Source: Rodentibacter trehalosifermentans (GTDB taxonomy: Bacteria; Pseudomonadota; Gammaproteobacteria; Enterobacterales; Pasteurellaceae). From it: a stretch of 46,088 bases of DNA. Below, one piece after another: positions 34,902-45,942 of the stretch (the first letter of the stretch is position 1; each line of letters opens with the position of its first letter). The notes below the pieces were generated by a model that did not search any database, was not told where the DNA came from, and saw nothing but the letters and a program-made list of their open reading frames with translations. The translations under genes and the position numbers were made by a program. The stretch spans positions 1 to 46,088 of the forward strand of contig NZ_MLHL01000002.1 in the NCBI RefSeq assembly GCF_002000545.1, given 5' to 3'.

Positions 34902-35660
34902 CTAGACAGTGATTAATTCAACATTGAGCTCTTTAATGGCGTGTTGTACCGATTCAACCAGATTTTTGTCACAAATAATGCAATCAAACCTTGTCAAAGG
35001 GCAAATATGGAAGGTTGCCACTTTGCCATATTTTGAGGAGTCCGAGACTAAAATTCTTTGATTGCTGGCATCAAGCAAGGCTTTTTTTACCGGTAATTTG
35101 TTTTCGTCAGGGGTGGTTAAGCCTTTCAATGTCCACGATGAAGTAGAAACAAAGGCAATATCAATAGAAAGCTGTCGGAGGAATTGACCGGCAAGTTCGC
35201 CAACGGAAGAATGATTCAATTTATTCACGCTCCCACCGATATGAATCAATTCGCATTGCCCATTCGTCATAAGAAAATGAGCAATAGAAAAATCGTTTGT
35301 CACCACTAAGAGATCATTACGCTCAATTAAACGGTAAGCAATTTCTAATGTGGTAGTGCCGGCATCAAGATAAATGGTGGTATTGGTTGGAATTTGTTGT
35401 GTGGCAAATTTGCCAATTTGTTCTTTTTGAGCACGAAAGAGAAGAGATTTATCTTGGTGAGTTGGCTCAAAAGATAAATGCTCTTGCATTTTTACTCCAC
35501 CCGATATGGAAACCACTTTTCCCATTTCTTCTAATTTTTGAATATCCCGGCGAATAGTCATATGGGAAACATTCAGCGATTCGGCAAGTTGTATAATGCT
35601 TACCATACCTTTTTGACTGATTAAATTGAGTAATAATTTTTGGCGTTCTGCAGGAATCAT
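34902..35660 (-). CDS. DeoR-family repressor of the tetronate operon
   Basis: A 252-residue DeoR-type regulator. The N-terminal helix-turn-helix (RQKLLLNLISQKGMVSIIQLAESLNVSHMTIRRDIQKLEEMG, residues 5-46) is followed by the sugar-phosphate-sensing domain, with LDAGTTTLEIAYRL near 90 and ILVSDSSKYGK near 197. ATG at 35660 has GAGGGG seven to eight bases away; a longer frame of nine codons is less likely. It is divergent from ltnD and is the natural local regulator of the operon, as in the similar H. influenzae region. Its inducer is unknown, presumably a phosphorylated intermediate. Confidence 0.9.
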   Translation of the reverse strand: MIPAERQKLLLNLISQKGMVSIIQLAESLNVSHMTIRRDIQKLEEMGKVVSISGGVKMQEHLSFEPTHQDKSLLFRAQKEQIGKFATQQIPTNTTIYLDAGTTTLEIAYRLIERNDLLVVTNDFSIAHFLMTNGQCELIHIGGSVNKLNHSSVGELAGQFLRQLSIDIAFVSTSSWTLKGLTTPDENKLPVKKALLDASNQRILVSDSSKYGKVATFHICPLTRFDCIICDKNLVESVQHAIKELNVELITV

Positions 35661-35722
35661 AAAAGTCCCCTCTAAAATTTTCTTCATTATATCGTTTTTC
35701 TCTCAACGTTTGTTTTCTTTAT

Positions 35723-35770: not shown

Positions 35771-35834
35771 TTTTTTTATTTTTAGCTGTGGCAGAATGCT
35801 CCACATAGATCAATTAACCTTACCTAGGAGAAAA

Positions 35835-36743
35835 ATGATGACAAACAAATCTTATTCAGTTACCGTAATCGGTTTAGGTGCAATGGGTATGGGGGCTGCG
35901 CAATCTTGCGTGAAAGCCGGCTTAACCACTTACGGTGTCGATCTTAATACGACATCACTTGAAAAATTAAAGGAAGCAGGCGCTTATGCCGTTAGTCAAA
36001 GCTCGGTCGATTTTGCCGATAAATTAGATGCTGTTGTATTACTTGTCGTGAATGCGGCACAAGTCAATGCAGTGTTATTTGGTGAAAATGGGTTAGCGGA
36101 AAAACTTAATAAAGGTACCGCCGTGATGGTTTCTTCAACCATATCTGCGCAGGATGCGAAAGAAATTTCACAAAAATTAACAAGTTTAGGATTGGTTATG
36201 TTAGATGCGCCTGTTTCCGGTGGTGCAGCAAAAGCCGCCGCAGGAGAAATGACCGTCATGGCATCTGGTTCAAAACAGGCGTTTGATAAATTACAGCCTG
36301 TACTCGATGCTGTGGCTGGTAAGGTGTACAACATCGGCGAAGAAATTGGTTTAGGGGCAACGGTGAAAATTATCCATCAATTACTCGCCGGCGTACACAT
36401 TGCCGCTGGGGCAGAAGCGATGGCGCTCGCCGCTAAAGCAGGTATTCCTCTTGATTTAATGTATGACGTGGTCACCAATGCGGCAGGGAATTCATGGATG
36501 TTTGAAAACCGAATGAAACACGTTGTGGAAGGGGATTATTCACCGCTTTCCATGGTAGATATCTTTGTGAAAGATTTAGGATTAGTGAACGATACGGCAA
36601 AATCCTTACGTTTCCCGCTTCACCTTGCCAGCACCGCTTATTCGATGTTCACAGAAGCCAGCAATGCAGGTTATGGAAAAGAAGATGACAGTGCAGTGAT
36701 TAAAATTTTTAGTGGTATTGAATTACCGAAAAAAGGAGTGTAA
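35835..36743 (+). CDS. ltnD: L-threonate dehydrogenase
   Basis: A 302-residue beta-hydroxyacid dehydrogenase. The NAD site GLGAMGMGAA starts at residue 13; DAPVSGGAAKAAAGEMTVMASG (near 118) and the catalytic-lysine segment GATVKIIHQLLAG (near 172) are typical. LtnD oxidises L-threonate at C2 to 2-oxo-tetronate. The gene order with OtnK, OtnC, OtnI and DenD identifies the tetronate branch. AGGAG stands four bases before this ATG and seven before a second ATG at 35838; either may be used. It is the first gene of the operon, behind the CRP-like site. Confidence 0.93.
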   Translation: MMTNKSYSVTVIGLGAMGMGAAQSCVKAGLTTYGVDLNTTSLEKLKEAGAYAVSQSSVDFADKLDAVVLLVVNAAQVNAVLFGENGLAEKLNKGTAVMVSSTISAQDAKEISQKLTSLGLVMLDAPVSGGAAKAAAGEMTVMASGSKQAFDKLQPVLDAVAGKVYNIGEEIGLGATVKIIHQLLAGVHIAAGAEAMALAAKAGIPLDLMYDVVTNAAGNSWMFENRMKHVVEGDYSPLSMVDIFVKDLGLVNDTAKSLRFPLHLASTAYSMFTEASNAGYGKEDDSAVIKIFSGIELPKKGV

Positions 36744-36745
36744 CG

Positions 36746-37990
36746 ATGCTAGGTATTATTGCAGATGATTTTACCGGTGCAAGTGATATCGCCAGTTTCC
36801 TTGTTGAAAATGGCTTGAATACGGTGCAAATGAATGGCGTACCCAATACCACATTAACAGAAAAAGTGGATGCCATTGTCATCAGTTTAAAATCTCGTTC
36901 AAATCCGGTGGAGGAAGCGATCGAACAATCATTACAGGCGCTTGATTGGCTACAAAAGAGCGGTTGTTCTCAGTTCTATTTTAAATATTGTTCGACATTT
37001 GACAGTACTGAAAAAGGTAATATCGGTCCGGTAACGGATGCCTTATTAGAGGCACTTAATGATGATTTTACGGTCATTACACCGGCATTACCGATTAATG
37101 GAAGAACGATTTTTAACGGTTATTTATTCGTCGGCAATGTGCTACTGAACGAATCCGGTATGCGTAATCACCCGATTACGCCGATGAAAGATGCCAATCT
37201 TATGCGTTTAATGGATGCGCAAGCCAAAGGAAAAACAGGCTTGGTGAGCTATGCTGATGTGATTCAAGGCGCCGAGCATGTGAAATCTTGTTTTGCCCAA
37301 TTAAAGCAAACGGGATTCCGTTATGCGGTGGTGGATGCGGCAGATAATAGCCAGCTTGCGGTACTTGCGGAAGCGGTGAGTGATTTGAAATTAGTGACCG
37401 GCGGTTCCGGACTCGGTGCTTATATGGCGGCGAGATTAAGTGGCGGTAAAAAAGCGGAAGAGGCGTTTGTACCGAAAAAAGCACGCAGTATCATTCTTTC
37501 CGGTTCTTGTTCCGAGATGACGAATAAACAAGTGAATGTTTATAAAGAAAAAGCCACCACGATTTATTTAGAGGTGGAAAAAGCGATAGCGGATGCCAAT
37601 TATGCCGACATCTTATTTGAACAAATTTTACCACATATTGATGAACCGCTTGCGCCAATGGTTTATGCCACAGTGCCACCCGATGAATTAAAACGGATTC
37701 AGGCACAATTTGGTGCGGAGCAGGCAAGCCAAGCTATTGAGCAAACTTTTGCGAAATTGGCACAACGATTAAAAGAAAAAGCCAATGTGGAAAACTTTAT
37801 CACCGCAGGCGGTGAAACGTCCAGCATTGTCGTGCAAAAACTCGGATTTAGCGGTTTTCAAATCGGTAAACAAATTGCACCGGGTGTGCCTTGGTTAAAA
37901 GCCTTGGGAGAATCGACCGCACTTGCTTTGAAATCCGGTAATTTCGGGAAAGAAACCTTTTTTATTGATGCGCAGGGAATGATGTTATGA
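36746..37990 (+). CDS. otnK: 3-oxo-tetronate kinase (DUF1537 family)
   Basis: A 414-residue four-carbon acid sugar kinase. The family motif IADDFTGASDIASFL (D7, D8) lies at the N-terminus; the nucleotide-binding half has ILSGSCSEMTNKQ near 250 and a glycine-rich AGGETSSIVVQKLG near 353. It phosphorylates 3-oxo-tetronate at O-4. DUF1537 proteins are established kinases in threonate and erythronate catabolism. The start, three bases after ltnD, has AAAGGAG. Its stop overlaps the otnC start (ATGA), so they are coupled. Confidence 0.94.
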   Translation: MLGIIADDFTGASDIASFLVENGLNTVQMNGVPNTTLTEKVDAIVISLKSRSNPVEEAIEQSLQALDWLQKSGCSQFYFKYCSTFDSTEKGNIGPVTDALLEALNDDFTVITPALPINGRTIFNGYLFVGNVLLNESGMRNHPITPMKDANLMRLMDAQAKGKTGLVSYADVIQGAEHVKSCFAQLKQTGFRYAVVDAADNSQLAVLAEAVSDLKLVTGGSGLGAYMAARLSGGKKAEEAFVPKKARSIILSGSCSEMTNKQVNVYKEKATTIYLEVEKAIADANYADILFEQILPHIDEPLAPMVYATVPPDELKRIQAQFGAEQASQAIEQTFAKLAQRLKEKANVENFITAGGETSSIVVQKLGFSGFQIGKQIAPGVPWLKALGESTALALKSGNFGKETFFIDAQGMML

Positions 37991-38619
37991 CTGATTCAGA
38001 ATTAAAAACACTTATGGTGCAACTTGGTCGTTCTTTCTATGAGCGGGGTTATACCGTTGGTGGAGCAGGGAATCTCTCCGTTCGGTTAGATGAAAATCGT
38101 ATTTTAGTGACCCCGACAGGCTCTTCCCTAGGGCGTTTGAAAGCGGAACGACTTTCCGTGCTGGATATGGATGGTCATGTACTTGAAGGTGATAAACCCT
38201 CAAAAGAATCCGTATTTCATTTGGCGATGTACCGTAAAAATCCTGAATGCCGGGCAATTGTACATCTTCATTCTACCTATTTGACGGCACTTTCCTGTTT
38301 GGAAAATCTTGATCCGCAAAATGCCATGAAAGCCTTTACACCTTATTACGTGATGCGGGTCGGAGGCTTGCCGGTCATTCCTTATTATCGTCCCGGCTCC
38401 CCTCGTATTGCCGAAGAGTTAGAAGCCCGGGCATTATCCGGAAAAGCCTTTTTGCTGGCGAATCATGGCGTGGTGGTAACAGGAGAAGATTTGTTAGATG
38501 CCGCTGATAATGCGGAAGAATTGGAGGAAACCGCCAAACTTTTCTTCCTTTTACAAGGAAAACCGATTCGTTATCTCACCGATGACGAAGTGAATGAATT
38601 AAAAAATAGGGGGAAATAG
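37987..38619 (+). CDS. otnC: 3-oxo-tetronate 4-phosphate decarboxylase
   Basis: A 210-residue class II aldolase-family enzyme. The metal ligands H93 and H95 ([12 protein letters not shown]) and H160 ([13 protein letters not shown]) and the glutamate E74 (PSKES) are present, with [10 protein letters not shown] at the N-terminus. In this pathway it decarboxylates 3-oxo-tetronate 4-phosphate to dihydroxyacetone phosphate and CO2. It overlaps otnK by four bases and is followed by otnI after two bases. The family resembles L-fuculose-phosphate aldolase, but the context decides the assignment. Confidence 0.93.
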
Positions 38620-38621
38620 CC

Positions 38622-39398
38622 ATGCCAAAATTTGCTGCGAATTTAACCATGATGTTCAACGAAGTTCCTTTTATTGAACGTTTTGCCGAGGCGGCAAAAG
38701 CGGGCTTTAAGTATGTTGAATTTCTTTGGCCTTATGATTACGACATTGAAACCATCAAGCAAGAACTGGATAAACATGGTTTACAAGTCGTGCTATTTAA
38801 CACACCCGCCGGTGATGTTTCCAAAGGTGAATGGGGTGTTTCAGCGATTCCGGGACGTGAAGCGGAAAGTCATGCGCATATTGATATGGCACTGGATTAT
38901 GCCTTAGGTCTAGGTTGCCCCAATGTGCATATCATGGCGGCGGTTGTCCCTGAAGGTGCGGATAAAGTGGAATATCAGCAAACGTTCATTAACAATATTC
39001 GTTATGCGTCAGAGAAATTTAAACCTCATGGTGTGAATATTTTACTTGAAGCCCTAAGTCCGGAAGTCAAACCGAATTATTTGTTAAAAAGCCAATACGA
39101 CACGCTGGCAATCGTGGAACGGGTTGAACGGGATAATGTCTTCGTTCAGTTGGATTATTACCATGCGCAAAATGTGGACGGTAATTTATCTCGTTTAACG
39201 GATAAATTAAACGGCAAATTCGCCCATGTACAGATGGCTTCCGTACCGGATCGTCATGAGCCGGATGAAGGTGAAATTAACTACGACTATATTTTCAATA
39301 AACTTGATGAAATCGGTTATCAAGGTTTTGTCGGTTGCGAATATAAACCGCGAGGGGAGACATTAAGCGGTTTGGGATGGTTTGAGAAGTATAAATAA
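38622..39398 (+). CDS. otnI: 2-oxo-tetronate isomerase
   Basis: A 258-residue protein of the hydroxypyruvate-isomerase TIM-barrel family. [35 protein letters not shown] at the start, [15 protein letters not shown] near 143, [10 protein letters not shown] near 176 and [16 protein letters not shown] near the end supply the metal and acid-base residues. In this operon the expected reaction is 2-oxo-tetronate to 3-oxo-tetronate, linking LtnD to OtnK. It lies two bases after otnC, with GGGGG as ribosome site. The residue pattern alone cannot exclude hydroxypyruvate isomerase. Confidence 0.92.
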
Positions 39399-39500
39399 GT
39401 CATAAAGTGCGGTTGTTTTTTGCCATGTTTTTTAAATATGAAAATAGCCGCTTTTTTATACCCTAAATTTGCCTTTTTAAAGGTTCAAGGAGCGTTTTTT

Positions 39501-40448
39501 ATGAAAATTGTGATTACCGGCGGACAAGGATTTCTCGGTCAACGCCTTGCAAAAACATTACTTAATCAAACAAAAATTGATATTGATGAGCTTACCTTAA
39601 TTGATGTGGTGAAGCCTGTCGCACCGAATAATGATCCACGCGTAAAATGTTTTGAAATGGATCTTCGCCATCCTAAAGGATTGGAAAAGATTATAACGGC
39701 TGAAACGGATGCCATTTTCCATCTTGCAGCGATTGTAAGTAGTCATGCGGAACAAGATCCTGATCTCGGTTATGAAATTAATTTCTTGGCAACCAAGAAC
39801 TTACTTGAAGTTTGTCGCCAAAATAACCCTAAAGTACGTTTCGTTTTTTCCAGTTCACTTGCCGTATTTGGCGGTGAATTACCGGCGGTCATTCAAAATG
39901 ATACCGCCGTTACCCCTCAATCTACCTATGGCACACAAAAAGCAATGAGTGAATTACTCATTAATGACTATACAAGAAAAGGTTTTGTTGATGGTTTTTG
40001 TGTTCGTTTACCGACCATTTGTATTCGCCCGGGCAAACCTAATAAAGCCGCTTCTTCTTTTGTGAGTAGTATTATTCGAGAACCATTACACGGCGAGCAA
40101 GCCATCTGCCCGGTATCGGAAGATTTGCGACTTTGGTTATCCAGCCCGAATACAATTATTGAGAACTTCATTCATACATTAACGTTACCGTCGTTACCAT
40201 TACGTAGTTGGCATGTTATTAATCTTCCTGGCTTTACCGTCAGTGTTAAACAGATGCTTTCCGATTTGGCGAGTATAAAAGGTGATCAGATTTTGGCAAA
40301 TGTCAAATTTGAATTTGATCAAAACATTAACAATATCGTGGCAAGTTGGCCGGCTGAAATTAATTGTTCACAAGCTTTAGAACTGGGATTTTCCGTTGAT
40401 CAGAATTTTAAAGATGTGATTCATCAATTCATCCAATTTGATATGTGA
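39501..40448 (+). CDS. denD: D-erythronate dehydrogenase
   Basis: A 315-residue extended short-chain dehydrogenase. GGQGFLGQRL (residues 7-16) binds NAD, and the active site is Y143-G-T-Q-K147 with S118/S119 before it. DenD oxidises D-erythronate to 3-oxo-tetronate, which enters at the OtnK step without the isomerase. The ATG at 39501 follows AAGGAGCG; an upstream in-frame extension lacks support. The 102-base gap after otnI contains an uptake signal, and no strong terminator is seen, so it stays in the operon. Its presence with ltnD suggests both acids are used. Confidence 0.92.
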   Translation: MKIVITGGQGFLGQRLAKTLLNQTKIDIDELTLIDVVKPVAPNNDPRVKCFEMDLRHPKGLEKIITAETDAIFHLAAIVSSHAEQDPDLGYEINFLATKNLLEVCRQNNPKVRFVFSSSLAVFGGELPAVIQNDTAVTPQSTYGTQKAMSELLINDYTRKGFVDGFCVRLPTICIRPGKPNKAASSFVSSIIREPLHGEQAICPVSEDLRLWLSSPNTIIENFIHTLTLPSLPLRSWHVINLPGFTVSVKQMLSDLASIKGDQILANVKFEFDQNINNIVASWPAEINCSQALELGFSVDQNFKDVIHQFIQFDM

Positions 40449-40471: not shown

Positions 40472-41938
40472 ATGCTTGGACTACCTACGCCAATTATTGG
40501 CTTAATTATTGCTGTATTCGTTCTTGTTGTTTTGGTGTTAAGAACACGTGTTCACGCTTTTATTGCGATGTTAATTGCCTCATCTATTGCCGGTTTGATC
40601 GGGGGAATGAGCGTTAATGATACCCTTGGTGCGATAACTAAAGGTTTTGGTGGCACATTGGGGGGAATCGGGATTGTTATCGGTCTTGGTGTCATGATGG
40701 GAAGCGTTTTGGAAGTGTCTGGTGCGGCTGAAAAAATGGCATTTAGCTTCATCAAATTCTTAGGTAAAAAGAAAGAAGAATGGGCTCTCGCAATTACCGG
40801 TTATATTGTGAGTATTCCTATTTTTGTGGATTCAGCCTTTGTGATTTTATATCCCGTTGCTAAAGCGTTGGCGAAAAACGGAAAACGTTCATTACTAACC
40901 TTAGGCGTGGCACTTGCCGGTGGTCTAGTTGTGACTCACCATACTGTGCCGCCAACACCGGGTCCATTAGGCGTTGCAGGTCTATTCGGTGTGGATATTG
41001 GTGCAATGTTACTGGTTGGTATGTCATTTGCCGTATTGCCGGTGATTGGTATGGTTTTATATGCGAAATGGTTAGATAAAAAATATCCGACTTTCAACCA
41101 AGAATCTTTTTCTACGGAAGAATTAAAGCAAAAATACGATGATTATATTGAAAAACACGAGAAGAAAAATCTTCCAAGCTTAGGGTTATCGTTACTTCCA
41201 ATTGTACTGCCAATTTTGCTTATTTTTATCAAAGCGATTCTTGATTTAGCGATTAAGAGTAGCCCGGCAATTGCAGAGATGAAAATCTACCATTTCTTTG
41301 CTTTTATTGGTCATCCGATGATTGCATTAGCACTAAGTGTTTTAATTTCTGTTTATACCTTGTTGCCTAAAGTCGATAAAAATACGACCGCACTTCACCT
41401 TGAAGAAGGGGTAAAAACAGCCGGTATTATTTTATTGGTAACCGGTGCCGGTGGGGCATTAGGTGCGGTATTGCGCGATAGTGGCGCAGGCAAACAATTA
41501 GCGGAGCAAATTGCCAGCCTCCCAATTTCGCCTATTTTAATTCCTTTTATCGTCTCTACACTGGTCCGTTTTATTCAGGGCTCCGGCACGGTGGCGATGA
41601 TCACTGCCGCATCAATTTCTGCGCCTATTCTGGCTCAAATTCCGGGTGTCAATATGTTGCTCGCTGCTCAAGCTGCAACAATGGGATCACTTTTCTTTGG
41701 TTACTTTAACGATAGTTTATTCTGGGTGGTCAACCGAATGATGGGAATCAATGATGTGAAGAAACAAATGATCGTTTGGTCCGTCCCTACCACAATTGCA
41801 TGGGCAATTGGGGGAAGTTTGGTGATTATCGCCAATCTAATTTGGGGTAATGACGGTTCTATAACGGATTTGATTTTCCCATTAGGCATCCTCGCGTTAA
41901 TCATGGGGTATGTTCAGATTCAGAGTAAAAAGCTATAA
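40472..41938 (+). CDS. GntP-family permease, probable tetronate uptake
   Basis: A 488-residue GntP-type permease with about twelve to fourteen helices. GLGVMMGSVLEVSGAAEKMA near residue 70, SIPIFVDSAFVILYPVAKAL near 112 and HHTVPPTPGPLGVAGL near 156 are strong family motifs. It differs clearly from the shorter GntP relative at 1.2-2.5 kb. It ends the tetronate operon with a TAAGGAG ribosome site 23 bases after denD, so L-threonate and D-erythronate are the likely substrates; this is context. A terminator follows. Confidence 0.92.
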   Translation: MLGLPTPIIGLIIAVFVLVVLVLRTRVHAFIAMLIASSIAGLIGGMSVNDTLGAITKGFGGTLGGIGIVIGLGVMMGSVLEVSGAAEKMAFSFIKFLGKKKEEWALAITGYIVSIPIFVDSAFVILYPVAKALAKNGKRSLLTLGVALAGGLVVTHHTVPPTPGPLGVAGLFGVDIGAMLLVGMSFAVLPVIGMVLYAKWLDKKYPTFNQESFSTEELKQKYDDYIEKHEKKNLPSLGLSLLPIVLPILLIFIKAILDLAIKSSPAIAEMKIYHFFAFIGHPMIALALSVLISVYTLLPKVDKNTTALHLEEGVKTAGIILLVTGAGGALGAVLRDSGAGKQLAEQIASLPISPILIPFIVSTLVRFIQGSGTVAMITAASISAPILAQIPGVNMLLAAQAATMGSLFFGYFNDSLFWVVNRMMGINDVKKQMIVWSVPTTIAWAIGGSLVIIANLIWGNDGSITDLIFPLGILALIMGYVQIQSKKL

Positions 41939-41949
41939 CCGCTAATCTA

Positions 41950-41984
41950 TTGAGTGGGAGGGGGATTTCCTTCCTCCCACTCAA
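41950..41984 (+). terminator. terminator after the tetronate operon
   Basis: TTGAGTGGGAGG and CCTCCCACTCAA form a perfect 12-bp stem with an 11-base loop. The downstream tract is A/T-rich but not a pure T run. It marks a boundary between the tetronate operon and the hydrolase cluster. Confidence 0.7.
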
Positions 41985-42085: not shown

Positions 42086-43450
42086 ATGTTCAAAAAAATA
42101 CTCGTTGGTATCTTTTTATTTTTTACGCTATTTCATGTTTGGGCTCAAGAGGATAGACCTCAATCAGGAAAACCGATACAGGCTACATTACTGGCTGAAA
42201 TTACCCCATTAGGTCAAAGGATAACAGGCGTTGCATTGGAATACGAAGATAATGTTCTGGCAACCAGTGATTTGAGATATTCCTACCAAGTACTCACCCA
42301 ATTAGAAGAAAAAGAAAGGCTCCCCCGTTCTATTATTCGTGCTTATGTCAATGATTTGCCGAAAAAAGCAATACAAGCCAAATCAGGTAAGTTTGTCATC
42401 CTTGAACTAGATGATAGGGATGTGAATGCGGCTTTATATTCGTTGAAAGAGGATAATCAACAGCCTATGAAATTTCAATCAAAAGACAATTCAGGCAATA
42501 TTGTTGAGGTTGAGAAAGTTCAAGGAATAAAGATTCCGCAATATTATGGCGGGAAGTTAGTCTATCAAATTGACCAAACCGGTTATATCAAACTTTCCAA
42601 TGGGAAAACCATTGAACGAAATTCAGTGTCTTTGAGTGCCGAAAAAGATCACCTTAAAACTTTATTTATCGATGATTTTTCTGAACAAGTGGTCAGGCTT
42701 AATGAAAATAATTTCTTGAAATATCGTTTTTATCGTCCCGATTTAATGGCAAACAAAAAATATCCTCTCACGATTTTCTTACATGGCTCCGGTCAAGTCG
42801 GTACAGATAATTTAGCCCATATTGTTTCAAATAAAGGTGCAATTTCGACACTACAATATGAAGACGGATTTGTACTTGCTCCTCAATATAGTACGGTTTT
42901 TGATCCTTTTGATGATAAAGCGAAAGGGCAAAAGGGCGGTATTCATTGGCAAACTCAGAATCGAGCGAATTTAGTGTTAAAGATGATCGATGAGGTGGTG
43001 CAGCAAAATCCAGCTATCGATAAAGATCGTATTTATTTAGTGGGATTATCTCGTGGTGCCGAAGGGGCGTTAAATCTCTTACTAAATCGACCGCACTTTT
43101 TTGCCGGTGCATTATTAGCAAGTGGAAGGGAGGCTTATACAACGGAATGGATTGATGGTTATGCCAATAAAGAAAATTTAGCGCCAATTAAAAATGTGCC
43201 TATGTGGTTTTTCCATAGTAAGGAAGATCGAATCTCACCGGTTAAAGGATCTCGTATTAACTATGAGATTTTGCACAACCAACTTGATGCCCCTTACGTG
43301 AGATATACCGAGTTTACCACAGAAAAAGCGGGCGATAATGGCATCATTAATAATAATCCGCACAACACTTGGGATGTTATTTTTAACAGCCCGGAAGTCA
43401 TGCAGTGGTTATTACAACAACGCCGTGTAATGAGTAAAAATGAAAATTAA
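42086..43450 (+). CDS. secreted alpha/beta-hydrolase esterase
   Basis: A 454-residue exported hydrolase. A signal peptide (residues 1-20, VWA-QE cut) is followed by a strand-rich N-terminal part (about 30-200) like the Ig-like domain of EstA-type esterases. The catalytic domain has HGSG (233-236) for the oxyanion hole, nucleophile S322 in GLSRGAEG, D381 in HSKEDRISP, and H426 in NNNPHNTWD. It would cleave an ester or short ester-linked chain in the periplasm or outside. Its natural substrate is unknown. The start has a strong AAGGAGAG site. It is first of three closely spaced genes downstream of the tetronate operon and holds an exact uptake signal. Confidence 0.83.
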   Translation: MFKKILVGIFLFFTLFHVWAQEDRPQSGKPIQATLLAEITPLGQRITGVALEYEDNVLATSDLRYSYQVLTQLEEKERLPRSIIRAYVNDLPKKAIQAKSGKFVILELDDRDVNAALYSLKEDNQQPMKFQSKDNSGNIVEVEKVQGIKIPQYYGGKLVYQIDQTGYIKLSNGKTIERNSVSLSAEKDHLKTLFIDDFSEQVVRLNENNFLKYRFYRPDLMANKKYPLTIFLHGSGQVGTDNLAHIVSNKGAISTLQYEDGFVLAPQYSTVFDPFDDKAKGQKGGIHWQTQNRANLVLKMIDEVVQQNPAIDKDRIYLVGLSRGAEGALNLLLNRPHFFAGALLASGREAYTTEWIDGYANKENLAPIKNVPMWFFHSKEDRISPVKGSRINYEILHNQLDAPYVRYTEFTTEKAGDNGIINNNPHNTWDVIFNSPEVMQWLLQQRRVMSKNEN

Positions 43451-43462
43451 TAGGGGGCAATT

Positions 43463-44140
43463 ATGTATGTCTATTTATCATACCCACTTGATGTGAATGA
43501 TCCCGGGTTTCCGGGGGAACCGACATTAACACTAGAATGCTGTACCAACACGGATCATGGCGATGTGTATAACAGTTCGAAAATTCATTTATTTAACCAT
43601 TTTGGTACACATTTTGATGCGCCACGTCATTTTAATCCCAAGGGCGTGACGATTACGGAATTGCCCTTGAGCCAATTTATTTATGAATCTCCTTTGGTTC
43701 TTGATATTCCTAAGAAAAATGGAGAACTGATAGAACCTCAAGATTTTCAACCGCATTTGGCGAGTATTCAACGGGCGGATTGTTTGATTATTCGTACAGG
43801 ATTAGAAACCTCACGTAAAGAAAACCCGCAGGAATATGCTAAGAATGGCGGCGCATTTAGTATTCAAGCTGCACAGTATTTAATTGATCACGCTAAAAAT
43901 CTGAAAGCGGTAGGTTTTGATTTTATTTCTTTAGCTTCTCCAACCCATCCTGATCACGGCGTGAAAGCCCACCAAATTTTGTTGGGAATGTTCAGTGATG
44001 ATTTCATCTGTATTATTGAAGATATGACTCTCGCCCATTTGGATAAAACAAAAGTAAAACGCATTTTTGCTTTACCGCTCAGAGTGAAGGGCATTGATAG
44101 TGCGCAAGTCACGGTGTTAGCGGAATTGGAGGATGCCTGA
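43463..44140 (+). CDS. cyclase-family metal-dependent hydrolase
   Basis: A 225-residue protein of the cyclase/kynurenine-formamidase-like family. The metal motif H46-F-G-T-H50-F-D52-A-P-R-H56-F is clear (HxGTHxDxPxHF). The C-terminal segment HPDHGVKAHQILLG supplies further residues. Family members open lactams, formamides or lactones (for example isatin and N-formylkynurenine) with a divalent metal. No tryptophan-degradation genes are near. It has no signal peptide, so the substrate is cytoplasmic. It lies 12 bases after the esterase and overlaps the next gene by one base (TGATG), so all three are probably cotranscribed. Confidence 0.86.
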   Translation: MYVYLSYPLDVNDPGFPGEPTLTLECCTNTDHGDVYNSSKIHLFNHFGTHFDAPRHFNPKGVTITELPLSQFIYESPLVLDIPKKNGELIEPQDFQPHLASIQRADCLIIRTGLETSRKENPQEYAKNGGAFSIQAAQYLIDHAKNLKAVGFDFISLASPTHPDHGVKAHQILLGMFSDDFICIIEDMTLAHLDKTKVKRIFALPLRVKGIDSAQVTVLAELEDA

Positions 44141-45942
44141 TGAAGATTGAGAAAAAATCATTTCTATGGACTTTCTTTTTATTGATATTGAGTTTATGCA
44201 GCGCCTATTTTTCTTCTTTAATTGAAAGTGATTTTGGACGCATAGATGTGCGTACCGTTAGTTTTATCACGGAAGAAAACCAACCTATGGTGGCGAAACT
44301 ATATCATCCTCATTCTGCTACGGCAGAAACCCCCAAACCGGGATTGCTTGCATTGCACGGGTATCAAAGTGATAAAGAGGCAACAACAACTTTTGGTGCT
44401 TTAGAATTGGCAAAACGTGGTTTTGTGGTACTCGCAATTGATCATTTTGGACATGGCTATTCAACGAAATTACCAGCATCGAATAAAAATATGAGCGGTG
44501 CCAATAATGGCTATCAGTATTTGAAAAAATTGCCCTTTGTGGATTCTCAACGTTTGGGGATTTTTGGTCATTCTACCGGTGCATTAAATGCGATTCGGGT
44601 AGCAAAATTAAATCCGGATCACCGTGCGATTAATGGGCTAAGTTCTAATGGTGGGGATACTGATCTAAACAATTATTTGCTCACTCAAGGTCTGTATGAG
44701 GAAATTGGCGGATACCGAGAAAGAACCTTCCCTGTTAAATCCTTAGTACATAATGAAAATCGCTTAAAAGCCTTCTCGTTGGCATCGAGCGAGACGTTAA
44801 AATGGGATCACACTTATGGTAATTTTAACGATGGTTCGGCACGTAGAGCAGCATTAGTCAACGGAACACATCTTGGGGTGATGATTTCTTCTCACAGTAA
44901 TAAGGAAGCGATTCTGTGGTTTAATCAAACATTGCAAAATGCGGAGCAGGATTCTGATTGGATTGAACCGGAGGAACAAACTTATTGGTATAAAGAATTT
45001 GCCGGATTGTTTGCATTAATTTGTGCGATAGGATCTGCGTTATGTTTGGCAAACGGGTTATTAAAGTGCAATTATTTTTCATCAATTACGCAAACTATCA
45101 CCCCAAAAATGGCAGTAACGACATCTCGCTGGCGGATATTTTCCCTGATCAATATTGTTGCCACTATTGTGTTATATCCGATTTTTACACAATGGGGAGG
45201 AGCGAATGAACCTATTGCCGCAACCTTCTCGTTTATGCCATTAGAAATGGGCAACGGAATTGTAACTTGGTTAGTCGTGAGTGCGTTGATTAATTTAATC
45301 TTTTTCTTAGTATGGAAAAAATCAACACAAATTTCTCTAGCGGAGTTTGGGGTTTATAGCAATCATCAAAACATATCGACATTGACGTTAATTTTTCGCT
45401 CATTAGTTTTAGCCGCATTGCTGATTCTCTGGTTATATTCTATTGCAAATTTTGTACAGGTTTATTGGGGCGTTGAACTACGTTTCTTGTGGCCACTCTT
45501 AAAACCGTTAACGGCTGAACGTTTCGATTTATTCCCAATTTATTGGTTACCTATTTTATTCTTTTTCTTTATTTTCTACGGGTTAATTATTTCTGTGCAA
45601 ATGAAGCAAAAGGTTGAAACTTCATTCACTAAGACGTTGTTTGTGTGGACATTAAAGAGCAGTATTTTTGCCGCAGGTGGATTAATCATTCTATGGTGTT
45701 TTCACTTCATTCCGGCATTTATGCAAATTGGACCGATGTTTGATGTGCTTGGATTGCCACAATTTGGTGGTCGCTGGATGATGATGTTAGTTGTGATTAT
45801 TCCGCAGATCATTGCCTTTATTTTTATTAATTACTGGTGTTATTTAAAAACAGGTTATATTTATCTAGGCGTGTTTTTGACTTCAATATTGATGACATGG
45901 ATTATGGTCGGAGGGCAAGTTATCGGTCGTTTCCTTGCATAA
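44140..45942 (+). CDS. membrane-embedded alpha/beta hydrolase, N-terminal enzyme plus eight C-terminal helices
   Basis: A 600-residue protein that I cannot name. Residues 10-26 are a membrane anchor. Residues 40-270 form an alpha/beta hydrolase with HG (73-74), nucleophile S145 in FGHSTGALNA and a candidate histidine at 244 (NGTHLGVM); the acid is uncertain. From about residue 285 to the end there are some eight membrane helices with no known domain that I recognise. If the first helix exports the enzyme, the hydrolase would face the periplasm, near the secreted esterase product. It carries no exact uptake signal over 1.8 kb. The start is coupled to the cyclase-family gene. Confidence 0.8.
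   Translation: MKIEKKSFLWTFFLLILSLCSAYFSSLIESDFGRIDVRTVSFITEENQPMVAKLYHPHSATAETPKPGLLALHGYQSDKEATTTFGALELAKRGFVVLAIDHFGHGYSTKLPASNKNMSGANNGYQYLKKLPFVDSQRLGIFGHSTGALNAIRVAKLNPDHRAINGLSSNGGDTDLNNYLLTQGLYEEIGGYRERTFPVKSLVHNENRLKAFSLASSETLKWDHTYGNFNDGSARRAALVNGTHLGVMISSHSNKEAILWFNQTLQNAEQDSDWIEPEEQTYWYKEFAGLFALICAIGSALCLANGLLKCNYFSSITQTITPKMAVTTSRWRIFSLINIVATIVLYPIFTQWGGANEPIAATFSFMPLEMGNGIVTWLVVSALINLIFFLVWKKSTQISLAEFGVYSNHQNISTLTLIFRSLVLAALLILWLYSIANFVQVYWGVELRFLWPLLKPLTAERFDLFPIYWLPILFFFFIFYGLIISVQMKQKVETSFTKTLFVWTLKSSIFAAGGLIILWCFHFIPAFMQIGPMFDVLGLPQFGGRWMMMLVVIIPQIIAFIFINYWCYLKTGYIYLGVFLTSILMTWIMVGGQVIGRFLA

Follow-up and report, generated by a model that had tools for sequence, protein, structure and literature searches.

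A modular set of hydrolase genes at the tetronate locus of Pasteurellaceae, proposed as a front end of tetronate catabolism

Three hydrolase genes lie directly downstream of a tetronate operon in Rodentibacter trehalosifermentans, and their position raises the question of whether they serve this operon and what substrate they would act on. The window, i.e., the whole stretch of DNA that was analysed, comprised 46,088 nt (contig NZ_MLHL01000002.1, positions 1 to 46,088, forward strand). The unit preceding the three genes was evaluated via NCBIfam profiles. The L-threonate dehydrogenase LtnD (35796..36743, NF043037, 474 bits, cut-off 350), the 3-oxo-tetronate kinase OtnK (36746..37990, NF043035, 594 bits, cut-off 350), OtnC (37987..38619, NF043034, 308 bits, cut-off 250), the 2-oxo-tetronate isomerase OtnI (38622..39398, NF043033, 394 bits, cut-off 325) and the D-erythronate dehydrogenase DenD (39420..40448, NF043036, 483 bits, cut-off 325) were all encoded on the + strand and exceeded their equivalog cut-offs in one run. 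The first four of these enzymes above such cut-offs characterize a Pasteurellaceae-type tetronate operon. The LtnD start was possibly called too far upstream. A GntP-family permease of the tetronate/gluconate type followed on the same strand (40472..41938, PF02447, 482 bits), and exceeded a subfamily cut-off only (TIGR00791). The divergent YgbI-like DeoR repressor (34902..35687, - strand) scored 349.5 bits against NF040890, below its cut-off of 400. The preceding unit was thus the threonate/erythronate operon that had been named in the earlier note.

The three genes, EST, CYC and MHY, were intact ORFs on the + strand. EST and CYC were separated by 12 nt, and the CYC stop and MHY start had one base in common, in agreement with the tight, partly overlapping unit described before. 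EST (42086..43450, 454 aa) was assigned by Pfam and by profile and fold matches as an EstA-type esterase with an Ig-like N-domain and an alpha/beta hydrolase domain. EstA_Ig_like (PF18435) scored 79.8 bits, esterase domains were also detected, and a leader was seen by eye. S322 (in GLSRG), D381 and H426 were invariant among 38 sequences, and EST therefore has the Ig-like domain and the conserved Ser, Asp and His expected of this esterase type. The structure 3doh, which we take to be Thermotoga EstA, was matched across both domains by profile (E 2.1e-46) and by fold (TM 0.67/0.80). These features point to a secreted EstA-like esterase of putative activity. A PHA depolymerase type 1 (NF050058) was rejected as its identity at 57.7 bits, far below the curated cut-off of 150.

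CYC (43463..44140, 225 aa) belonged to the cyclase-family metal hydrolases, with 81.2 bits against the PF04199 cut-off of 23.1. The metal-site residues were retained, i.e., H46, H50, D52, H56, H170 and E186 were invariant among 32 sequences, and no leader was seen. MHY (44140..45942, 600 aa) was assigned as a membrane alpha/beta hydrolase by Pfam and structure prediction, and Hydrolase_4 and an FrsA-like domain both exceeded their cut-offs. S145 (in GHSTG) and H244, two putative residues of the triad, were invariant among 24 sequences. The assignment of the conserved residues as catalytic or metal-binding was presumed from family knowledge in all three proteins; on this reading, the earlier statement that the catalytic residues are intact held for EST, CYC and MHY and their relatives. 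The FrsA esterase (NF003460) was rejected as the identity of MHY, with 33.2 bits over 127 residues only and a cut-off of 477.

The MHY model had a mean pLDDT of 72.6 and a pTM of 0.76, and was weak near the active site. It predicted one N-terminal helix, an outward catalytic domain and eight further helices. Invariance reached 57-76% in the predicted outer loops, compared with 6-12% in three of the four inner loops. The best 50 of 907 fold matches of MHY were alpha/beta-hydrolase-type enzymes, with no match for its membrane domain. The earlier note had placed one hydrolysis step outside, one at the membrane and one in the cytoplasm. Since the catalytic domain of MHY is predicted to face outward, two enzymes (EST and MHY) would act outside and one (CYC) inside, and the chain of three compartments was replaced by this arrangement.

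The boundary between the two units was also inspected. A hairpin with a perfect 12-bp stem and an 11-nt loop was read by eye between GntP and EST (41950..41984, + strand). It had no clean T-tract, and was absent from the list of the terminator scanner because its loop exceeded the permitted 3-8 nt. A terminator-like hairpin hence exists where a terminator had been noted. In the other loci, the EST start was at most 75 nt from a GntP-type gene in 34 of 36, and a hairpin ended 16-27 nt 5' of EST in 20 of 36, a raw count taken without a shuffled control. The latter spacing leaves little space for a separate EST promoter.

The gene-neighbourhood survey proposed in the earlier note was carried out on 140 Pasteurellaceae genomes, with weak paralogue matches dropped from the counts. 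Neither outcome named as speaking against a link was seen, i.e., co-occurrence of the homologues was not rare, and they were not found mainly away from tetronate genes. The EST sequence was at the tetronate locus in 44 of the 46 genomes having it, and the same was true of the CYC orthologue (38 of 38) and the MHY orthologue (27 of 27). The presence of EST was associated with that of OtnK at p = 2.5e-19, a value uncorrected for kinship, and the association in Pasteurellaceae is partly due to vertical inheritance. Moreover, OtnI and DenD were separated by CYC and MHY in four loci and by CYC in four more, which places these genes within the operon; the nested CYC-MHY pair was found in Pasteurella. 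Other loci (L043, L048, L049 and L058) had differing arrangements, all kept at the tetronate locus. The fear that the link to the operon was accidental was not borne out by these counts and this nesting.

The set was modular rather than a fixed trio. EST occurred alone in 7 of 61 tetronate loci, which means that a fixed chain is not required, and 13 of the 61 had none of the three genes, so the module is dispensable. LtnD was present in all 61. Every locus with intact MHY also had intact CYC (26/26). In all nine loci with a MIP channel, CYC was of the CYCb subfamily (broken in some of them), and CYCa was found in none. Intact EST was retained in 9 of the 19 loci lacking DenD, which points to L-threonate as the product and disfavours D-erythronate as a special product.

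Outside Pasteurellaceae, EST, CYC and MHY were each absent from all 40 tetronate loci drawn from the rest of the phylum, and the full tetronate operon with CYC and MHY was found in Cardiobacterium and two Lautropia MAGs. In Cardiobacterium, the EST slot contained a leader-bearing, unrelated alpha/beta hydrolase. In Treponema, the gene order was dehydrogenase-MHY-CYC-DUF1537 kinase; the dehydrogenase belonged to the LtnD superfamily and scored as 2-hydroxy-3-oxopropionate reductase, not as LtnD. Two Actinomyces had the order kinase-dehydrogenase-SMP30-MHY, the kinase again being of the DUF1537 type and the dehydrogenase of the LtnD superfamily, and an SMP-30-family gene stood in place of CYC in three Actinomyces (Pfam was run on two of the three). 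When plasmids were searched with CYC, all relatives (65 records) were below 60% identity. Several of the bacteria that carry the module inhabit the mouth and airway of vertebrates. The functional tie of the trio to the tetronate operon is strongly supported by this position, conserved across the family and, in altered form, across phyla, together with the nesting and the replacements.

On this basis, EST-CYC-MHY probably acts as a modular front end to tetronate catabolism, freeing tetronates from esters or lactones; the catalytic activities and the substrate are what we infer from these data. The exported EST and MHY, the latter held by nine helices, would cleave tetronate esters outside the inner membrane, and the free tetronate would enter through GntP. 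A neutral lactone would enter otherwise, in some relatives probably through the MIP channel, and CYC, a proposed cytoplasmic tetronolactonase by virtue of the SMP-30 replacement in Actinomyces, would open its ring. The common product L-threonate would be converted to dihydroxyacetone phosphate via LtnD, OtnI, OtnK and OtnC. Esters or lactones had already been suggested as substrates, and the SMP-30 gene in the CYC slot, the MIP channel seen only with CYCb and the constant company of CYC with MHY are consistent with this suggestion, although such support is indirect. If this is correct, conjugated threonate, and possibly oxidised vitamin C, would be a nutrient of bacteria on vertebrate mucosa.

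The origin of the ester or lactone was then considered. A tentative possibility is that simple acyl or sugar esters of threonate or erythronate and free tetronolactones, dietary or from the host, are scavenged without relation to ascorbate. The EST relative 3doh was deposited as an esterase, SMP-30 in the CYC slot argues for a lactone, and a MIP channel fits a neutral solute. However, to our knowledge no such ester is an abundant mucosal nutrient.

It is doubtful, but conceivable, that the module serves the oxidative branch of vitamin C breakdown, converting cyclic oxalyl-threonolactone, cyclic oxalyl-threonate and oxalyl-threonate into L-threonate and oxalate, as a complement to ula for ascorbate and yia for diketogulonate. 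The documented oxidation of dehydroascorbate proceeds via a proposed cyclic oxalyl-threonolactone, cyclic oxalyl-threonate and oxalyl-threonate to oxalate and threonate, and esterases take part in vivo, according to the parts of PMC6225978 and PMC6099474 on this chemistry. The three hydrolases of the module equal in number the ester bonds of the proposed lactone; this lactone is described as short-lived and hypothetical. In 3 of 15 genera, ula genes were found no more than 15 kb from the tetronate locus (whole operons in two, the third without UlaE/UlaF in view), and a yia operon, with most gene names read by eye, was directly 5' of it in one further genus. In two separate genera, a partial EST adjoined ula (G099), and a fragment comprising the C-terminal half of EST stood roughly 3.5 kb away from a UlaF-like gene (G138). 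Against this, the proximity did not differ significantly from that of the NagB and GlpK controls: 4 of 18 genera had ascorbate or diketogulonate genes within 15 kb versus 2 of 23 for the controls (p = 0.22), and 5 of 18 versus 4 of 23 within 40 kb (p = 0.34). The p values for ula closeness under uniform placement (1e-4 for genomes, 9e-4 for genera) were disregarded in view of the empirical control, which gave 0.22. EST presence did not correlate with that of ula or yia (p = 1 and 0.41), 12 of 38 intact-EST loci were in genomes having neither, and only CYC versus ula reached p = 0.04, uncorrected, among nine presence tests. Support for the earlier idea of ascorbate products was suggestive only. 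With little confidence, we prefer oxidised ascorbate as the natural source, in the form of oxalyl-threonate, cyclic oxalyl-threonate and the lactone of these. It is less likely still that this branch has its first gene set here, with EST and MHY as esterases and CYC as lactonase cutting the three ester bonds to feed L-threonate, in several phyla and, in some genera, in one vitamin C island with the ascorbate and diketogulonate operons.

An improbable alternative is that MHY is lipase-like, with a polyol product that feeds its neighbours, and that the substrate degraded by the trio is a lipid or polymer, acylated and with a tetronate unit in it. Membrane embedding is predicted, and the genes around distant homologues included those for glycerol kinase and a glycerol-3-phosphate oxidase-like protein; glycerol kinase was adjacent or within 5 kb in 3 of 5 loci, so the natural ester of MHY may belong to another polyol. 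These homologues were just 34-37% identical, however, and we know of no tetronate lipid. That relatives of the MHY family adjoin different catabolic kinases makes the substrate assignment testable. Finally, merely accidental neighbours in a stable chromosomal place, serving an unrelated substrate, would agree with the hairpin between the units and the 13 loci without all three genes, but this was rejected as highly improbable given the locus counts, the nesting in Pasteurella, the varied arrangements that stay at the locus, and the same-family kinase and dehydrogenase neighbours in Treponema and Actinomyces.

Among the matches listed (titles and abstract openings) from open-licence literature on threonate/erythronate catabolism and its gene names, threonate in Haemophilus influenzae or together with ulaA, lactones, oxalyl-threonate, dehydroascorbate, threonic acid in saliva and EstA, the module was undescribed, and no open-licence paper joining Pasteurellaceae and threonate was found. 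Its parts were compared with known systems. EST shares the Ig-like and esterase domains of the Thermotoga EstA-type esterase (3doh), but is only 25% identical to it in the fold alignment, the two being compared by sequence and fold alone. CYC shares the metal-site motif and sequence family of kynurenine formamidase KynB and the PF04199 hydrolases; unlike KynB (TIGR03035), an identity rejected at 68.1 bits, far below the cut-off of 223, it has tetronate genes as neighbours. The SMP-30/gluconolactonase family (PF08450) takes the slot of CYC in the three Actinomyces and is compared with it in role only, and no sequence relation between them was found. All core enzymes of the known operon LtnD-OtnI-OtnK-OtnC-DenD are present and adjacent here. 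The L-threonate/D-erythronate pathway, as outlined in the part of PMC12540250 that deals with it, starts from free threonate and names neither hydrolase nor lactonase there, whereas hydrolases are added at this locus. The proposed reaction is like that of the plant oxalyl-threonate esterase (Green and Fry, cited in PMC6225978); the plant enzyme is an activity with no gene named in that part of the source. Candidate genes are thereby offered for a step known as chemistry and plant enzyme activity, and are tied to a defined bacterial catabolic pathway.

The three hydrolase genes were intact and lay downstream of the tetronate operon: the secreted EstA-like esterase (EST, 42086-43450), the cyclase-family metal hydrolase (CYC, 43463-44140) and the membrane alpha/beta hydrolase (MHY, 44140-45942). 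The operon consisted of a YgbI-like repressor, LtnD, OtnK, OtnC, OtnI, DenD and a GntP permease, and all five enzymes (LtnD, OtnK, OtnC, OtnI and DenD) reached their NCBIfam equivalog cut-offs. The cluster described in the earlier note is real; its neighbourhood with the operon, which that note had considered possibly accidental, proved meaningful, with a conserved locus in the Pasteurellaceae and related arrangements beyond the family. The source genome (2.59 Mb) also encoded a second PF04199 protein at a contig end (G000:C38:226-669, locus L002; 67.6 bits).

Linkage was evaluated in 140 Pasteurellaceae genomes, every one supplied for the family. EST matches below 100 bits, CYC matches below 34% identity and MHY matches of 31 bits or less were discarded; 9 of 55, 4 of 42 and 27 of 54 genomes, respectively, had nothing better. 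After filtering, EST was present in 46 genomes, 44 of which had OtnK, and it lay at the OtnK locus in all 44 (38 intact, 6 broken). CYC (38 genomes) and MHY (27 genomes) were always at the tetronate locus. Two genomes had EST without OtnK. In G131, an EST remnant abutted a repressor remnant (L221:8563-9395), which looks like the deletion scar of a whole lost tetronate operon; in G099, an incomplete EST at the end of a contig adjoined an ascorbate (ula) operon. Rearrangement had split one MHY (G043) and one EST (G138), each between two places.

Among the 61 tabulated Pasteurellaceae tetronate loci (L035-L094 plus the window), all three hydrolases were intact in 23, all were absent from 13, and EST stood alone in 7. 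Intact MHY was accompanied by intact CYC in 26 of 26 loci and by EST, intact or broken, in 25 of these. CYC fell into two subfamilies, with 66-96% and 38-41% identity to the window CYC; they occurred together in none of the 61 loci. A MIP channel gene was present in 9 loci, and each of these had a CYC of the second subfamily, either intact or broken. DenD together with GntP was found in 42 loci and a second GntP paralogue in 19. These two states were nearly exclusive, the exceptions being L043 and L049 with both and L064 and L081 with neither; the transporter type seems to track the use of D-erythronate. Downstream of L035, L036 and L043-L045, a CdaR-like regulator, a GntP paralogue and a glycerate-kinase-like gene (named by eye) recurred.

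CYC and MHY lay between OtnI and DenD in four Pasteurella-type loci, and this order was identical in P. oralis and P. canis. In L048, L050, L051 and L076, CYC lay between OtnI and DenD, accompanied in three of them by the MIP gene, and MHY followed EST. For the 36 loci in which intact EST adjoined a GntP-type gene, the gap was at most 75 nt in 34, and hairpins of -8 kcal/mol or lower occurred in 33. The hairpin ended 16-27 nt upstream of the EST start in 20 of the 36 and overlapped the called start in 9, where the start was probably called too early. Hence, scant space was left for a promoter of its own, and EST is probably transcribed by read-through from the tetronate operon. The gap was wider (about 145 nt) in the window and its closest kin, and the hairpin of the window had no clean T-tract.

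Elsewhere in the phylum, none of 40 sampled OtnK loci had an EST, CYC, MHY, MIP or SMP-30 (lactonase family) gene within about 8 kb. The MHY alignment scan used the best 80 of 85 relatives (79 loci). Among these, all 17 Pasteurellaceae loci carried OtnK, and the operon enzymes occurred with CYC and MHY in Cardiobacterium valvarum and two Lautropia MAGs, in one of which MHY was spread over two ORFs. The place of EST in Cardiobacterium was taken by a distinct alpha/beta hydrolase that has a leader. The order in one Treponema was dehydrogenase, MHY, CYC (41% identical) and DUF1537 kinase, and the dehydrogenase scored highest as 2-hydroxy-3-oxopropionate reductase, not LtnD. Two Actinomyces loci, L116 (assigned by Pfam and NCBIfam) and L125 (by eye and profile), carried GntR (by eye), a DUF1537 kinase, a dehydrogenase (in L116 best matching LtnD, below the cut-off), an SMP-30 family gene and MHY; only GntR, SMP-30 and MHY were within view in a third. 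In Actinomyces, this lactonase family thus takes the place of CYC. Glycerol kinase was adjacent or within 5 kb in three of five more distant MHY relatives (34-37% identity), which suggests a membrane hydrolase releasing glycerol; the MHY family may serve to release a polyol for the kinase next door. In these three loci (L122, L124 and L120), a glycerol-3-phosphate oxidase-like gene was also near in two.

In the simplest reading, EST and MHY would cleave an ester outside, the product would be taken up, and CYC would open a lactone inside for entry into the tetronate pathway; we infer an ester or lactone as the substrate class. L-threonate is the likeliest product because LtnD was present in 61 of 61 loci and intact EST was retained in 9 of 19 loci without DenD. 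In a published synthetic pathway, spontaneous opening of D-threonolactone was suspected by the authors to be too slow, and no product was obtained unless both a lactonase and an importer of threonate were supplied (PMC10079672); a lactonase would thus be of use.

Ascorbate, proposed earlier as the source of the substrate, is attractive but unproven. Dehydroascorbate is oxidised to oxalyl-threonate, cyclic oxalyl-threonate and a proposed oxalyl-threonolactone, with oxalate and threonate as end products (PMC6225978, PMC6099474). In 3 of 15 genera, ula genes and the tetronate locus were no more than 15 kb apart; two of these had the complete ula operon, and neither UlaE nor UlaF was in view in the third, Conservatibacter. 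There, an idonate/gluconate-type permease, two dehydrogenases and a gluconokinase-like gene (by eye) lay between the ula and tetronate operons (L226:10620-14555). G040, from a fourth genus, had a diketogulonate operon of the yia type directly upstream of the tetronate locus; genes other than YiaK were assigned by eye and from their resemblance to L232, in which YiaK reached its cut-off and YiaN fell short. The yia-type operon (L234:7769-17138; IclR, YiaK-YiaO, kinase and UlaE/F/D-like, mostly by eye) ended about 50 nt from the tetronate repressor. Half of the split EST of G138 and a UlaF-like gene were some 3.5 kb apart, and the partial EST of G099 adjoined ula. Two results spoke against the ascorbate reading: UlaG or YiaK lay within 15 kb in 4 of 18 genera versus 2 of 23 for the controls NagB or GlpK (p = 0.22), and EST presence was independent of ula and yia presence.

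The best named match of the window MHY was from Rodentibacter sp. Ppn85 (95% identity), which makes Rodentibacter the very probable host. The model of the window MHY comprised a single helix at the N-terminus, an alpha/beta-hydrolase domain and another eight helices, with moderate scores (pLDDT 72.6, pTM 0.76). With the N-terminus assumed inside, positive charge exceeded negative in the inner segments except loop 4-5, and outer loop 5-6 was likewise slightly positive. Invariance was 57-76% in the three long outer loops, 6-12% in three of the four inner loops and 57% in the fourth inner loop (7 residues). This pattern of charge and invariance places catalysis on the outer face, as a prediction only. 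CYC was a PF04199 protein whose putative metal-site residues were invariant across 32 relatives; its score against the arylformamidase model (68 bits) was far below the cut-off of 223. EST had EstA Ig-like and esterase domains in Pfam, and its model (pLDDT 86.8) resembled the solved esterase 3doh, which shared both domains (E 2.1e-46) and a similar fold (TM 0.67/0.80).
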